In this document: positions 16,599 to 31,294 of the stretch, piece by piece
Position numbering within the stretch: the first letter of the stretch is position 1
Layout of the letters: the number at the start of each line of letters is the position of its first letter
Origin: Caenibius sp.
GTDB taxonomy: Bacteria; Pseudomonadota; Alphaproteobacteria; Sphingomonadales; Sphingomonadaceae
DNA length: 33,443 nucleotides
Assembly: GCA_030830695.1 (NCBI GenBank)
Contig: JAURML010000183.1
Span: 1-33,443, forward strand
Direction of reading: 5' to 3'
Program-made: the position numbers and the translations under genes
Notes under the pieces: generated by a model
What the model was told of the DNA's origin: nothing
Seen by the model: the letters and a program-made list of their open reading frames with translations, nothing else
Databases searched by the model: none

Positions 16599-18770
<2,172 letters not shown>

Positions 18771-27066: not shown

Positions 27067-27116
27067 AAACTGGAGCGGGCGAAGGGATTCGAACCCTCGA
27101 CCCCAACCTTGGCAAG
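27067..27116 (-). repeat. Left attachment repeat (tRNA-Gly 3' fragment)
   Basis: A 50-bp exact copy of 31055-31104. On the minus strand it contains the tRNA-Gly 3' part from the anticodon loop through the T arm, acceptor stem and CCA. It is not a functional tRNA because the 5' half is missing. It is the outer att site left by integration. Confidence 0.93.
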
Positions 27117-27168
27117 TGACGGGGCTAGAGAAACGTATTTTATTTCAGCGCTTAAAAGCGCCTTCGAA

Positions 27169-27204
27169 AATCCGTTTATGATCCGTTTATATCAAATCCG
27201 TTTA
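27169..27204 (+). repeat. Left arm repeats (ATCCGTTTAT x3)
   Basis: Two tandem ATCCGTTTAT-type units fill 27169-27190 and a third AATCCGTTTA is at 27195-27204. The 22-bp double unit occurs identically at 30975-30996. Each is 52-58 bp inside an attachment core, which is where arm-type binding sites of tyrosine integrases are found. Confidence 0.75.
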
Positions 27205-27312
27205 AGGCATGCATCGAGAAAGCAGAAAAGCAGCAGCCTTTGAAGGCGATTGTATTCAGGCTGAGAGGGGCTGGAGAAGAAGCTTAAGTTTCTCAAATCT
27301 CTATAACGGTCA

Positions 27313-27582
27313 TCAATCAAGCTGCTGGCGCAGATTGGTCAAGACCTGATCCACGTCTAACCCGACAACTCGTGCATAGGCTTTTGCAAAACCCAAGACA
27401 TAGACCCGGCTTAGGAAAACAGAGAAATCATCTTCCTCTAGCGCCGTAAGGAAGCGAGATGAAACCTTGCTCGTCTCGGCAACATCCTGAATTGACATGC
27501 CTCTCGAAAGACGCGCAGCCGCTAGGCTCGCGCCCACACTTTCTGGATGCGCCAATAGGCTTCCGAAATCCTCGACACCCAT
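27313..27582 (-). CDS. RodZ-type helix-turn-helix protein, small
   Basis: The protein (89 residues from ATG 27582) carries a HTH domain of the RodZ/HTH_25 type. The residues SVGASLAAARLSRGMSIQDVAETSKVSSRFLTALEEDD form the usual helix-turn-helix, followed by FLSRVYVLGFAKAYARVVGLD. In RodZ this domain is joined to a membrane anchor; here there is none, so it is more likely a DNA-binding regulator. As the first gene from the left end of the element, it could be the repressor of the element. A TTG at 27657 would add 25 residues and would lie close to the DnaA-box match; I could not decide which start is used. Confidence 0.75.
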   Translation of the reverse strand: MGVEDFGSLLAHPESVGASLAAARLSRGMSIQDVAETSKVSSRFLTALEEDDFSVFLSRVYVLGFAKAYARVVGLDVDQVLTNLRQQLD

Positions 27583-27660
27583 ACGCCGCCCCCAAATAGC
27601 GGCTAGAGGAACTTGGGCCTCACTAAGCCGCTTCCGAATCGGATCCCATAATAACAAAAG

Positions 27661-27669
27661 TTATCCACA
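27661..27669 (+). promoter_or_regulatory. DnaA-box match
   Basis: TTATCCACA is an exact match to the DnaA box consensus. It lies upstream of the HTH gene and 30 bases before an AT-rich run (27697-27720). A single box proves little, but one beside AT-rich DNA in an element with an HUH-like protein is suggestive of a replication origin. Confidence 0.4.
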
Positions 27670-27713
27670 AGGTCGAATCTGGCTACTGGCGACAGGAAAA
27701 ATATTAAAATCAA

Positions 27714-27730
27714 ACTTTACCCGGTAAAGT
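27714..27730. promoter_or_regulatory. Palindromic operator candidate
   Basis: ACTTTACC (27714-27721) and GGTAAAGT (27723-27730) are perfect inverted 8-bp arms around one C. The site lies between the minus-strand HTH gene and a short plus-strand region that ends in a terminator. It overlaps a weak minus-strand -35/-10 pair (TTTACC, 16-17 bases, TAATAT). It fits an operator for a dimeric HTH repressor, probably the gene beside it. Confidence 0.5.
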
Positions 27731-27852
27731 GCCGCCGATTGATCTGCGTCAAAGTGCGCATCAAGCAATGGCTGTATCAAGATCAGGCGACCCGAGGAGC
27801 CCCTGGCTCCGCACTGACCCCGAGCGCCTCACACAGCAGCTCGGGGTCTTTT
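27731..27852 (+). ncRNA. Possible small RNA of about 100-120 bases ending at the terminator
   Basis: Between the palindrome at 27714-27730 and the terminator at 27816-27852 there is no convincing gene on the plus strand; the only frame has no family likeness and runs through the terminator stem. A promoter near the palindrome would therefore give a short RNA. The start point is a guess and no conserved RNA family is recognised. Confidence 0.3.
27816..27852 (+). terminator. Rho-independent terminator
   Basis: GACCCCGAGC (27816-27825) pairs perfectly with GCTCGGGGTC (27839-27848) around a 13-base loop and is followed by TTTTAT. This is a strong intrinsic terminator on the plus strand. No plus-strand protein gene is visible upstream of it inside the element. 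Confidence 0.85.
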
Positions 27853-27855
27853 ATA

Positions 27856-27978
27856 TCAAGCCCGACTTGCTTTGGCTTTTAGCACCCGAACATCCGCCTC
27901 TTTGTCGAGCAAATGCATTTTGCGATGGCAGTTCGGGCAGAGCGCGACTGTGTTCTCGATGCGGTCTACGTCCTTCAT
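27856..27978 (-). pseudogene. HNH endonuclease C-terminal remnant
   Basis: A 40-residue frame reads MKDVDRIENTVALCPNC followed by HRKMHLLDK. This is the second half of an HNH nuclease motif: the Asn/His of the metal site with CPNCH and a following His. The preceding part with the first CxxC and the HH pair is missing, and an in-frame TAA lies four codons before the ATG. It is therefore a truncated or frameshifted remnant. An AAGGAG is present about 20 bases upstream, so a short peptide could still be made. Confidence 0.6.
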
Positions 27979-28101
27979 GAAACCAGCTTAGCTTGAGCTC
28001 CTTGGTTGCCTATAGGAAAAAATTCCCGTCTGCGCCGATCCCAAGCGTTGAACTTTTATAAATACCCTTGAGCGCCGTTTAACGCAGCAAGGGAAAGTTC
28101 A

Positions 28102-28614
28102 ATGAAGGGCAAAGCCTACAAAGACAGGATCGCAGAAGAGCTTACCAGAAGGGTGAACCCCACCCACTTTGTGACCCTCTCTCTGATACAGTCGCGGTCG
28201 ATTGCCTCCGGCAAAGCCGAAGCTTGGGCAAAAGGCGATGATGTCATTTATCAGGCTGCCTATGATGGCTTTGTTCGTTCGCTATCCAAGCGCTCGGTCT
28301 CCCCGCGAGTTTGGAAGCGACATAAACCAATCCTGCCGAGCTATGGTTCGATCGAAGGCGACGGCAGCAACACCCTTCATCACCTTCATCTGGCAATTTC
28401 CAAGCCATCTTGCTGGACTGAATTCGAGTGGGAGAATGCCCTGAGGCTGACTGCCCTTGGCAACCCATGGATCAAGAGCGGTTCCTATGCCGTTAACATA
28501 GAAAAGCTGCCCGATTCCGCGGCTAAATTCCGAGCGGGCAGATACATATTGAAAGGTGGAGCTGACAGACTTTGCCTTACCGGAACATTCCAAGGCGCAG
28601 CCACCTCGCATTGA
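28102..28614 (+). CDS. HUH-endonuclease-like protein, possible rolling-circle replication initiator
   Basis: I do not recognise an exact family, but the 170-residue protein shows three motifs in the order found in HUH endonucleases. Motif 1 is FVTLSL (23-28, like the strand before the active site), motif 2 is HHLHLAIS with His94-x-His96 (His-hydrophobic-His metal ligands), and motif 3 is RYILK with Tyr148 and Lys151 (nucleophile and helper Lys). Spacing of 70 and 50 residues fits single-Tyr Rep or transposase proteins. AAGGGA lies 7 bases before the ATG. The C-terminus is short and may be cut. A rolling-circle initiator for the excised element is the inference; a REP-type transposase or relaxase fragment is the alternative. 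Confidence 0.6.
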   Translation: MKGKAYKDRIAEELTRRVNPTHFVTLSLIQSRSIASGKAEAWAKGDDVIYQAAYDGFVRSLSKRSVSPRVWKRHKPILPSYGSIEGDGSNTLHHLHLAISKPSCWTEFEWENALRLTALGNPWIKSGSYAVNIEKLPDSAAKFRAGRYILKGGADRLCLTGTFQGAATSH

Positions 28615-29007
28615 GGTCCCGCCAGACTGGATGATCCGTTTCTCGTGATGCTGGAAGCGAACAAGGCTGAGCCGATGGTTGGAGCCTTTAGACCCGTATA
28701 CCAGCAGCCAAGGTAGTGGATTGAAGCTGTTAGCTCGAGCTTCCAGCTGGATAATCACGGCTTGGATCTGACCTTGCTGCTGGTGAAGCTGTTTGATTGC
28801 TTCCTCCATCGTCTCGTTCTCGACATAGGAGGCGCTATCTTCAGCCAGCAGCTCGGTGTCTTCCAACAGCTTCAGAGCCTTCTTCAGTCTTGGTAATGGA
28901 TTGTCATGCGGCGAGTGAAGCTCACCCAGGGCAGCCTTATGAAGCCTTGTAGCTTCAGCCAGCATAGCCGATACGTGTGCTTCTGTTGGGTCAGTCGATT
29001 TGGGCAT
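28282..29007 (-). CDS. Hypothetical coiled-coil protein, C-terminus doubtful
   Basis: From ATG 29007 the first ~110 residues look like a real helical protein with coiled-coil features (LLEDTELLAEDSA, then EEAIKQLHQQQGQIQAVIIQ). The ATG shares one base with the stop of the nuclease gene upstream (TGATG), so it is translated after it. The second half of the frame runs antisense to the HUH-like gene over 333 bases, which is unusual. It is probably a chance extension past a deletion point near 28615. No family is recognised. Confidence 0.5.
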   Translation of the reverse strand: MPKSTDPTEAHVSAMLAEATRLHKAALGELHSPHDNPLPRLKKALKLLEDTELLAEDSASYVENETMEEAIKQLHQQQGQIQAVIIQLEARANSFNPLPWLLVYGSKGSNHRLSLVRFQHHEKRIIQSGGTSMRGGCALECSGKAKSVSSTFQYVSARSEFSRGIGQLFYVNGIGTALDPWVAKGSQPQGILPLEFSPARWLGNCQMKVMKGVAAVAFDRTIARQDWFMSLPNSRGDRALG

Positions 29008-29456
29008 CAACGCTCTTTCGAAGAGCGCCAAATCCAAGGTTCGACAAATTGAGATTGCCATAACCCAACACGCGATATCCGCGCTTGATCTTCCTCAGCA
29101 ACGTAGGCGTCAGAATAACGTCTATAGGCAAGTGCCCAGCCAGATTTGACCATCCAGCTATTTATTTCCCAGTCATCAAGCCAGCACCGGGCAAGATACC
29201 GACCATAACGGTCTTTGCCGCTGATTTCACACCTCACATTTTTGGCGTCGATGAACTCTTGGAGAGCATCAGCTGCCGCAGCGCCACAATGCCAATTTTC
29301 TCCACTTATTTGACACGACTGCCCAATCTCTGGCGCATCGAGCCCTTCCAGCCTGATGCGAGTATCACCGATACGCAGACTATCACCGTCTGTCACTGTG
29401 GGCACGCCGACAATAATATTAACAAACGCTAAGAACGGCAGCATCACAATCGTCAT
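29007..29456 (-). CDS. Thermonuclease (SNase-like) family protein
   Basis: The 149-residue protein has a hydrophobic N-terminus (MLPFLAFVNIIVG, likely a signal peptide) and a staphylococcal-nuclease-like OB-fold. It has VTDGDSLRIG, then IRLEGLDAPE with Arg35, Asp40 and Glu43, and KDRYGRYLARC with Arg83/Arg86. These match the catalytic Arg, Asp, Glu and Arg of SNase. Cys48, Cys57, Cys76 and Cys91 may form disulfides, in line with export. It would cut DNA or RNA in the periplasm or outside the cell. It is the first gene of a two-gene minus-strand unit, divergent from the 59-residue gene at 29521. Confidence 0.87.
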   Translation of the reverse strand: MTIVMLPFLAFVNIIVGVPTVTDGDSLRIGDTRIRLEGLDAPEIGQSCQISGENWHCGAAAADALQEFIDAKNVRCEISGKDRYGRYLARCWLDDWEINSWMVKSGWALAYRRYSDAYVAEEDQARISRVGLWQSQFVEPWIWRSSKER

Positions 29457-29520
29457 TCAGGACCTTGCTCCAAATACAGATACCAGCTAGAAAGCCTTAC
29501 AGCTAAGGGGCAGCTAATCC

Positions 29521-29700
29521 ATGGTAAATTGGCTGAGGGCAATCAAGGGATGCAACTCAAAAACGTTATGTCGCCAACAGACCGGTGACAATTCGATTGT
29601 AGAAATTTGCGCCGGATGTGGAGTCAAGCTATTTCGCAACCAGCAAGGACATTGGACGCCTGCCCAATTACAAACCTGCCCATTCGGAGAGTGGCCTTGA
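29521..29700 (+). CDS. 59-residue Cys-rich protein, zinc-ribbon-like
   Basis: A short frame with AGGGG (29506-29510) ten bases before the ATG. The protein starts MVNWLRAIKGC and has Cys at 11, 17, 30, 33 and 53; CAGCGVKLF is a zinc-knuckle-like CxxCG, and the end is CPFGEWP. This looks like a small zinc-binding domain. Its TGA stop overlaps the TTG start of the next gene (TTGA at 29697-29700), the same arrangement as an ATGA junction, which supports both genes being real and coupled. Function is unknown; no known family is recognised. Confidence 0.6.
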   Translation: MVNWLRAIKGCNSKTLCRQQTGDNSIVEICAGCGVKLFRNQQGHWTPAQLQTCPFGEWP

Positions 29701-30257
29701 AGATCTCTAAACGCTCAGCTTTCGCATTAACCGCATGCATTTTAAGCTCGGGGTGCGCAAGCGGCTCTGCCCTGCAGCCTGATCGGTCAATATTTAGCTT
29801 AGATAACAACTACCAGCGCTATTCCTATGCTATGTCTATCGAAGACACCTTCGAGCAGACGGTCTCCGTCTTCAAAGATGCAGGATACAAACTCGATGTA
29901 ACCGATCGAGCAACAGGTCAGATCAGTGGTCGCCGAGGAGCGAGTGGTGATAAAGGATCGGCAATCGACAAGGATCTCAAATTTTACGCTCTCGTCTTGC
30001 CGAAAGGGAACGGCAGCGAACTGAGCATTAAGATTGTACAAGTCATAAAGAATGGAGCCTTAGGTACTTCCAGAGCCGAGCTGATCGTCAATGACCCACA
30101 AATGTATCAGTATGCTTTTAAACGTATCGAAAATTCTGCACCAGAACCCTCGACCAAACCGGCAAGCTCGAACACCAATCCCGGTTATACGGAGCTGCCT
30201 GCGACAAACGGTTACATGCCTGAGCAAGGATCATATAACAGACCGCAAGATTGGTAA
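29697..30257 (+). CDS. Lipoprotein-like protein, function unknown
   Basis: The 186-residue protein starts with a basic, hydrophobic signal (MKISKRSAFALTACILSSGC) with Cys at residue 20 as a possible lipidation site; the residue at -3 is Ser, so the lipobox is imperfect. The body has a beta-rich domain with FKDAGYKLDVTDRATGQISG and LSIKIVQVI, then a Pro/Ser/Asn-rich tail. The start is TTG 29697, with GGAGAG at 29686-29691, overlapping the stop of the 59-residue gene. A lipoprotein on a mobile element could serve in surface exclusion or entry, but no family is recognised. The longer frame back to 29607 overlaps the 59-residue gene. Confidence 0.7.
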   Translation: MKISKRSAFALTACILSSGCASGSALQPDRSIFSLDNNYQRYSYAMSIEDTFEQTVSVFKDAGYKLDVTDRATGQISGRRGASGDKGSAIDKDLKFYALVLPKGNGSELSIKIVQVIKNGALGTSRAELIVNDPQMYQYAFKRIENSAPEPSTKPASSNTNPGYTELPATNGYMPEQGSYNRPQDW

Positions 30258-30307
30258 GTCGGCGTTCGGGCTCGATTATAAAACTTTCCTTTCATAATGA
30301 CCCATTC

Positions 30308-30369
30308 CGAACCCCTTGGGATCGCTAGGGTTTCGACCAACCAGCGGATTTGGCTTTATTTTTTTTCAT
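30308..30369 (+). terminator. Possible terminator after the lipoprotein-like gene
   Basis: AACCC (30309-30313) and GGGTTT (30328-30333) can pair, then a weak CCAA/TTGG stem (30339-30355) runs into CTTTATTTTTTTTC. The long T run is clear, but the stems are weak. Confidence 0.45.
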
Positions 30370-30386
30370 TATGTTATTTATCGAGA

Positions 30387-30414
30387 GGGCTCCTTTCTAA
30401 TCAAGCAGGAGCCC
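30387..30414 (+). promoter_or_regulatory. Hairpin covering the ribosome site of the recombinase fragment
   Basis: GGGCTCCT (30387-30394) pairs perfectly with AGGAGCCC (30407-30414). The GGAG (30408-30411) in the right arm is the ribosome site for the ATG at 30419. The hairpin would hide it, or act as a terminator (TTTC follows). Confidence 0.55.
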
Positions 30415-30418
30415 TTTC

Positions 30419-30667
30419 ATGTCCCTGACCAAGCAAGCCAAGACCCTCACAGAAGCCCAGCAGCGCACGGTTCTTTCCTATGTGAAAGATACTCGGCACC
30501 CCTCCCGCAATGAGCTGATGTTCCTGCTATCGGTAGACGCAGGTCTCAGAGCCAAAGAGATTGCAGCGCTGGAATGGTCTATGGTGACCGATGCTACAGG
30601 TGAGCTGACTGATGCCATCCGCCTTCAAGACAAAGCCTCAAAGGGCAGCTCTGGCGGTGTGGTCTAG
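30419..30667 (+). pseudogene. Tyrosine recombinase/integrase, N-terminal part only
   Basis: The 82-residue frame matches the start of short Xer-like tyrosine recombinases that I associate with sphingomonad genomes (MSLTKQAKTLTEAQQRTVL). It reaches the first catalytic Arg in DAGLRAKEIAALEW and continues to KASKGSSGG before a TAG. The Lys, His, Arg, His and Tyr of the rest of the active site are absent. A complete member would be about twice as long. The stop codon lies in CTAG, which also supplies the stop of the opposite-strand integrase fragment. It is a broken gene and cannot cut DNA on its own. Confidence 0.8.
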
Positions 30668-30951
30668 GCAAGTAGTCCATCAGAGATCCGCTTGGAGGTC
30701 AGCTTGCCTCCGCTAAGCACCTTGACCAGCGACTGATTGTAAAGCTCTTCAGCTATCCGATAGGCTTCGAACTCATCCGTGCTTCTGCTCGAGCGCCAGA
30801 CGTAGCCCTTGGCTCCTGGCACTTTGATTCTGATGAACCAGATGGGCTTTTTGTAGTCGGCTCGGCGATAAAGATAGATCGCACCGTCCTTGAAAGTCTT
30901 GCTCTCTAGGACCTTGGGCTCGGCACGTTTGCGAGCGGTTTCTTCAGCCAT
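30664..30951 (-). pseudogene. Phage-type integrase, N-terminal arm-binding part only
   Basis: The 95-residue frame looks like the N-terminus of a phage-type tyrosine integrase (FKDGAIYLYRRADY, WFIRIKVPGAKGY, then STDEFEAYRIAEELYNQSL). Full proteins of this type are several times longer and carry the catalytic domain at the C-terminus; here translation ends at the CTAG shared with the opposing recombinase fragment. GAGG lies 8 bases before the ATG. Its position, just inside the tRNA end and reading away from it, is that expected of the integrase that placed the element in tRNA-Gly. The arm repeats at 30975-30996 lie directly upstream. Confidence 0.75.
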
Positions 30952-30974
30952 AAACGCAACCTCAAAAACGGCTA

Positions 30975-30996
30975 AATCCGTTTATGATCCGTTTAT
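30975..30996 (+). repeat. Right arm repeats (ATCCGTTTAT x2)
   Basis: The same 22-bp double unit as at 27169-27190, in the same orientation, 58 bp from the right attachment core and 23 bp upstream of the integrase fragment. Likely integrase arm sites that could also repress the integrase promoter. Confidence 0.75.
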
Positions 30997-31054
30997 GGGG
31001 TTTTTGGCGAAAATAAATAAACCAGTAATTTATAAATCACTGGAATATATAGGA

Positions 31055-31104
31055 AAACTGGAGCGGGCGAAGGGATTCGAACCCTCGACCCCAACCTTGG
31101 CAAG
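31055..31104 (-). repeat. Right attachment repeat (inside tRNA-Gly)
   Basis: A 50-bp exact copy of 27067-27116, overlapping the 3' part of the intact tRNA-Gly gene. It restores the tRNA end after integration. Confidence 0.93.
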
Positions 31105-31133
31105 GTTGTGCTCTACCCCTGAGCTACGCCCGC
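31059..31133 (-). tRNA. tRNA-Gly (anticodon GCC)
   Basis: On the minus strand the acceptor stem GCGGGCG pairs with CGCCCGC. The D arm (GTAGCTCAGGGGTAGAGCA), anticodon stem CAACC/GGTTG with loop TTGCCAA (anticodon GCC) and T arm with GGTTCGAATCC are all intact, and CCA is encoded (31059-31061). It is 75 bases long. The 3' part was rebuilt by the integrated element. A weak TTGCGG/GCTAAC pair (31179-31205) may be its promoter. Confidence 0.97.
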
Positions 31134-31294
31134 TCACTGGCGTGTCCGGGCGCGAATGGCCCGGTGAGGAGGCGCGCGGTTAGCATCGCCCCTGCCGCCC
31201 CGCAAGAGGAAAATCGTTCGCTTTGATTGGCCCTTCACAATCAGCGCCAACACCCCACATTGTGATTTCACACGGCAGCGACGGGAGCAGCACT

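Follow-up and report, generated by a model that had tools for sequence, protein, structure and literature searches.

Attachment repeats and truncated integrases at a tRNA-Gly(GCC) gene

We analyzed a window of 33,443 nucleotides (contig JAURML010000183.1 of a Caenibius sp. draft genome) in which a 4-kb element, at 27067-31104, lies between two copies of the 3' part of a tRNA-Gly(GCC) gene (Table 1). A first-pass annotation, made from the sequence alone, had described an integrative element with an exact 50-bp repeat at both ends, corresponding to the tRNA from the anticodon loop to CCA, and with DNA of lower G+C in between. These observations were reproduced when the locus was measured again. 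The repeats cannot be extended beyond 50 bp and are spaced 3988 bp apart, and the right copy consists of positions 30-75 of the tRNA, whose anticodon is at 33, and of 4 bp past the CCA end. The G+C fraction of 27117-31054 is 0.505, compared with 0.643 to the left and 0.655 to the right. With the 4-kb segment as query, only two matches were found in its own genome, i.e., the segment itself and a 30-bp match to a tRNA-Gly(CCC) gene, and thus no second full copy. Among the matches listed for 59 relatives, none fell inside 27117-30983. The element therefore has the features of a tRNA-targeted tyrosine-integrase island: a direct repeat of the tRNA 3' part with the tRNA kept whole, an integrase adjoining the tRNA (as a 95-aa fragment only), and patchy presence together with foreign composition.

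Table 1. Features of the element at tRNA-Gly(GCC) (window coordinates)
Feature	Position	Strand	Basis or remark
Distal attachment-site copy	27067-27116		50 bp (tRNA-Gly 3' part and 4 bp more), repeated exactly and in the same direction at 31055-31104
Left arm-type repeats, three ATCCGTTTA	27168-27204		The G230 island has such repeats at its two ends
Stand-alone HTH_25 (RodZ-type helix-turn-helix) protein, 114 aa	27313-27657	-	Pfam HTH_25, 8.6e-20; the G230 island lacks this stretch
Fusion remnant, NUDIX gene start joined to HNH endonuclease gene end	27856-27978	-	~1.1 kb missing relative to G230
170-aa open reading frame (ORF) with one H-L-H motif ("HUH-like")	28102-28614	+	In a stretch without G230 match; no family assigned
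Gene, first ~97 codons like the 113-aa G230 island protein	28282-29007	-	tblastn 88% over 97 aa; blastn 28702-28992, 89%
Staphylococcal-nuclease-like (SNase) protein, 149 aa, cargo	29007-29456	-	Pfam SNase, 8.8e-17
ORF with lipobox-like stretch, putative lipoprotein, cargo	29607-30257	+	Lipobox by eye; no Pfam family
int2, truncated stand-alone tyrosine recombinase	30419-30667	+	82 aa, compared with 192 aa in G230
int1, truncated island integrase	30664-30951	-	N-terminal 95 aa, compared with 407 aa in G230; catalytic domain missing
Deletion junction	30665-30666		Two bases common to both flanking G230 segments; ~12.85 kb missing between
Right arm-type repeats, two ATCCGTTTA	30974-30996		Motif scan; same kind at both ends of the G230 island
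Proximal attachment-site copy, within tRNA-Gly	31055-31104		Exact repeat of 27067-27116
tRNA-Gly(GCC), integration target, complete	31059-31133 (ARAGORN); 31062-31133 (Rfam)	-	Single tRNA by each program

The nearest relative of int1 was detected in G230, a genome of the same family and a different genus, where a 407-aa integrase adjoins tRNA-Gly(GCC). The corresponding island (G230:C1:233319-252841) is bounded by exact 47-bp repeats, 19,477 bp apart, in this tRNA gene. It codes for HNH and NUDIX proteins, a 113-aa protein with a hydrophobic stretch at its C-terminus, an endonuclease/exonuclease-family protein, T5orf172 (GIY-YIG type, PADLOC PDC-S57), the 192-aa int2, an AAA protein, SLFN_AlbA_2, the restriction, specificity and methylation subunits of a type I system, a methyltransferase-domain protein and int1. 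Thus, complete relatives beside tRNA-Gly, for which a search had been proposed, do exist, and in this one the integrases are full-length. The AAA protein (212 aa, L044 3884-4522), which stands beside the stand-alone recombinase, resembles a clamp loader, with weak matches to DNA polymerase III delta-prime and to Rad17-like proteins.

Compared with G230, both recombinases in the window are truncated, so the earlier description of two broken integrases in a decaying element is borne out. The two fragments end at the same position, 30665-30666, whereas the full-length genes in G230 are ~12.85 kb apart. This DNA, absent from the window, comprises the type I restriction-modification system and the remainder of both recombinases. 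The int1 piece stops before the Phage_integrase domain (residues 219-393 of 407 in G230), and no other int1 match was found in the same genome. The fused HNH and NUDIX genes mark a second gap relative to G230.

Segments shared by the window and the G230 island have DNA identities of 77-92%, or 89-91% for the longest, and are colinear (blastn): the left end (27071-27285, 77%), the HNH end (27923-27967, 89%), the NUDIX start with its upstream region (27960-28064, 84%), the 113-aa gene (28702-28992), int2 with its upstream region (30275-30666, 91%) and the region from int1 to the tRNA (30665-31139, 90.5%). The likeness of the 28282-29007 gene to the G230 protein ends at 28702, and the rest of its frame is unrelated. 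No match to G230 island DNA was found for 27286-27711 (HTH_25 gene), 28065-28701 (170-aa ORF) and 28993-30274 (SNase and putative lipoprotein). These three stretches point to an ancestor that was not the G230 island itself, but its sister; judged by sequence comparison, the two islands share a skeleton and carry different modules. DNA identity between the window and G230 is 88.8-91.3% for int1, int2 and the 113-aa gene and 66-82% for ten core matches (eight of them 66-76%), with 69% in the thioredoxin region. That the island segments are closer than the core genes suggests recent transfer between genera rather than shared descent.

A feature absent from the first-pass annotation is a set of short repeats resembling integrase arm-type sites. 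Five copies of ATCCGTTTA occur in the window (starting at 27170, 27181 and 27196, and at 30976 and 30987), all at the two ends of the element, whereas 0.09 copies are expected and none of 100 shuffles reached five. A tandem pair related to ATCCGnnnATG was recognized by eye in the spacer between attachment site and integrase in all six relative islands inspected; a strict script pattern for the tandem motif matched two of the six, the other four being looser and seen by eye only. To the left of the G230 island is a low-GC stretch (0.44-0.49; G230:C1 228001-233319, L052) with a ATCCGTATATGATCCGTATAT repeat at its end, immediately beyond the outer attachment copy; this arrangement hints at another island in tandem.

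Based on these data, 27067-31104 is very probably the collapsed remnant of a genomic island that had inserted in tRNA-Gly(GCC). The ancestor would have been a full-length island with an int1 tyrosine integrase of ~400 aa at its tRNA end. As judged from the anatomy of the locus and from its relatives, it may have entered by Int-mediated recombination between the island's copy of the tRNA-Gly 3' half and the chromosomal gene, an event that would have rebuilt the tRNA and left the 50-bp copy at the far end. Site-specific integration at tRNA-Gly, as proposed earlier, agrees with the repeats and with the presence of related islands at the same gene. Internal deletions would then have removed most of the island: one may have placed int2, the fifth gene group, directly next to the N-terminal third of int1, truncating both, and another may have fused the NUDIX and HNH genes. 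The small size of the element would thus reflect internal deletion and not a compact autonomous design. The remnant is likely non-autonomous and unable to excise with its own genes; since the attachment sites and arm repeats survive, it might in principle be mobilized in trans, if a related integrase were supplied, or in cis, if an island were to integrate beside it. The intact counterpart illustrates how internal deletion may reduce an island to its ends and yet leave the attachment sites in place.

Islands at tRNA-Gly(GCC) in related genomes

The int1 fragment matched 18 of 296 genomes of the order, its own included. Among 19 int1-related loci outside the window (three further int1 matches fall outside this count), seven were found with tRNA-Gly(GCC), six with tRNA-Arg and six without a tRNA, one of the latter (L042) carrying the tRNA-Gly end as a 50-bp copy. 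When only the eight loci at least 48% identical over most of the fragment were considered, six were with tRNA-Gly, L042 had the 50-bp copy and L030 had neither. The repeat-bounded intervals at tRNA-Gly, counted in G033 and G014 whatever their integrase type, were 4.0 kb in the window, 8.2 and 44.7 kb in G033, 10.7 and 28.3 kb in G167, 11.2 kb in G207, 15.2 kb in G014, 19.5 kb in G230 and 29.9 kb in G208. The window interval is the smallest of these nine. G033 and G167 have tandem arrays. In G207, the island has genes for TIR, SIR2_2 and AAA_21 proteins, and the G181 island resembles a type I restriction-modification island (ORFs read by eye). These observations suggest that tRNA-Gly(GCC) is a recurrent, at times tandem, insertion site for defense-gene islands in this bacterial family. 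A literature search, judged by titles, returned no description of this site, which is no proof of absence.

Two other loci are worth mentioning. In G033, the middle attachment copy (L121 2639-2711) is predicted to be a tRNA-Gly(GCC) gene of its own. In G054, a short int1 remnant (G054:C184 1350-1644, L045) was found beside tRNA-Gly, and the first 4 kb show a single attachment copy; it is possibly another decayed island of the same type.

Flanking genes

According to the first-pass annotation, related genomes lacking the element should have tRNA-Gly followed directly by the AI-2E permease gene. No such empty site was found: a search for the AI-2E gene in 298 genomes of the family, taken together with the tRNA-Gly flanks of 18 relatives (only 1.8 kb of flank in G010), gave no AI-2E gene beside tRNA-Gly. 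The only AI-2E match in the 18 flanks was in G033, ~16 kb beyond the outer repeat copy. Among the matches listed, many relatives have the right flank (thioredoxin) next to tRNA-Gly, and this does not hold for the left flank; because the left flank is arranged otherwise in relatives, the predicted empty site could not be shown. The core block that starts with the pyruvate kinase gene (~6.9-25.8 kb, within 6861-27042 of the window) is inverted relative to tRNA-Gly/thioredoxin in G014 and G008, where it runs away from the tRNA-Gly side, and in G033, G230 and G019 it is far from tRNA-Gly or on another contig. The distance between the pyruvate kinase gene and the outer tRNA-Gly repeat is ~0.9 kb in G014.

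Remaining genes and the question of replication

The ORF with the lipobox-like stretch probably starts near 29692-29698, and it was matched in three other genomes of 108 from the order. The 170-aa ORF had been called HUH-like. It matched none of the families of Pfam, PHROGs, NCBIfam or PADLOC at E<=0.01 (best PDB match, E 0.53), and its single-sequence AlphaFold model was unusable (mean predicted local distance difference test score 30.6). At E<=0.001, no relative other than itself was found among 296 genomes of the order or 385 of the class, and searches of plasmids, phages and viral contigs gave none. A scan of genome contigs yielded one 25-residue match, in a Kiritimatiellae metagenome-assembled genome. 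At E<=10, weak matches appeared in 53 of 246 order genomes, its own included. The best of them (G082, E 0.0014) was interrupted by four stops; on inspection, that in G207 was not a convincing homolog. One plausible relative was an open frame in G144 with 27% identity over 136 residues, in which the second histidine of H-L-H is replaced (H-L-N). The G144 protein had no Pfam match and no significant PHROG match, and two further weak matches of this protein were unconvincing on inspection. Its gene (L135 10071-10637) is located 6.8 kb from an int2-type recombinase (17486-18070) that is 57% identical to G230 int2, a lead without a control.

Alternative explanations

The first-pass annotation had suggested either a small replicating integrative element or a phage satellite in decay. 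Its account of an integrated element with two truncated integrases and signs of decay stands, whereas neither of these identities was supported. A compact autonomous element that relies for replication on a Rep protein of the HUH type and on a DnaA box would fit the order of motifs in the 170-aa ORF, in which H-L-H is followed by Y-x-x-K (by eye), as well as the perfect DnaA box at 27661-27669. However, a motif of the H-hydrophobic-H type is present in 13 of the 64 window ORFs of at least 150 aa and is not kept in G144, and no HUH/Rep family was matched in Pfam, PHROGs or NCBIfam, so the HUH assignment, based on one such motif, is weak. The DnaA box, the single site in the scan, is not beyond chance, as a perfect box was also found in 8 of 100 window shuffles. 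Considering also that both integrases lack their catalytic parts and that the fold prediction gave no help, a replicating element is very unlikely; finding an H-x-H ORF and a DnaA box in a short segment between repeats does not necessarily indicate a mini-replicon. We regard a phage satellite or prophage remnant as similarly improbable. An integrase at a tRNA gene, together with HTH and HNH genes, is also found in phages and satellites, but the PHROG matches of nine window ORFs were of regulator, HNH, nuclease and integrase types only, with no structural, packaging, capsid or capsid-size, phage-hijacking or phage-replication gene among them. In addition, no DNA match was found in 50,697 phage records, the full-length G230 integrase had no relative in viral contigs and was below 60% identity in phages, and the G230 island holds restriction-modification and other defense-type genes.

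It should be noted, however, that several observations weigh against a collapsed island. Neither an empty site nor a relative of the same genus was available, and the ancestral state of the locus was not directly seen; moreover, no DNA of the G230 island matches approximately half of the element. The assembly is a draft of 200 contigs with 2.74% contamination, and the order of the left flank is unlike that in all relatives examined, so a misjoin might be suspected, either at 30665 or in the 50-bp repeat that derives from the tRNA. Such an artifact has little chance of being the explanation, because the ends, the arm repeats and the order of shared segments agree with the independent G230 island, and because one misjoin would have to produce separately both integrase truncations and the HNH-NUDIX fusion. 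A collapsed island might also have been retained because it is useful. The 95-aa int1 piece, located beside the promoter side and the arm repeats, would then bind arm-type sites and block excision or entry of related tRNA-Gly islands, acting as a site guard, while the SNase/lipoprotein module would be selected cargo, as would the 170-aa protein, which might be an HUH enzyme that has diverged and is connected with int2-type recombinases. This scenario is speculative, and we consider it hardly probable.

Comparison with known systems

The element at tRNA-Gly(GCC) resembles the G230 island in its tRNA, ends, arm repeats, HNH and NUDIX genes, 113-aa gene, int2 and int1. The G230 island differs in being 19.5 kb long with full-length genes, and it has other genes where the window has its three unmatched modules. 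A similar relationship is seen with the defense islands of tRNA hotspots. An integrase at the tRNA 3' end and direct repeats are common to both, and defense-type genes are present in the relatives (type I restriction-modification, GIY-YIG (PDC-S57) and SLFN_AlbA_2 in G230; TIR, SIR2_2 and AAA_21 in G207). In contrast, the window copy has no recognizable defense genes and both of its integrases are truncated; the cargo left consists of SNase, the putative lipoprotein and two small unassigned ORFs.

A further comparison is with cis-mobilizable elements (CIMEs), which are decayed integrative and conjugative or integrative and mobilizable elements that have kept attL and attR (PMC5704250). As in that description, the element in the window lacks integration genes, since both recombinases are truncated, and has kept both attachment sites; in G033 and G167, related islands follow one another at this tRNA, a setting for accretion. 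A point of difference is that in the nearest island, that of G230, no relaxase or transfer gene was present among the Pfam matches of the 15 proteins scanned. The element thus appears CIME-like in its state, with functional-looking ends, and in the strict sense, which implies conjugative or mobilizable descent, it is a candidate CIME.

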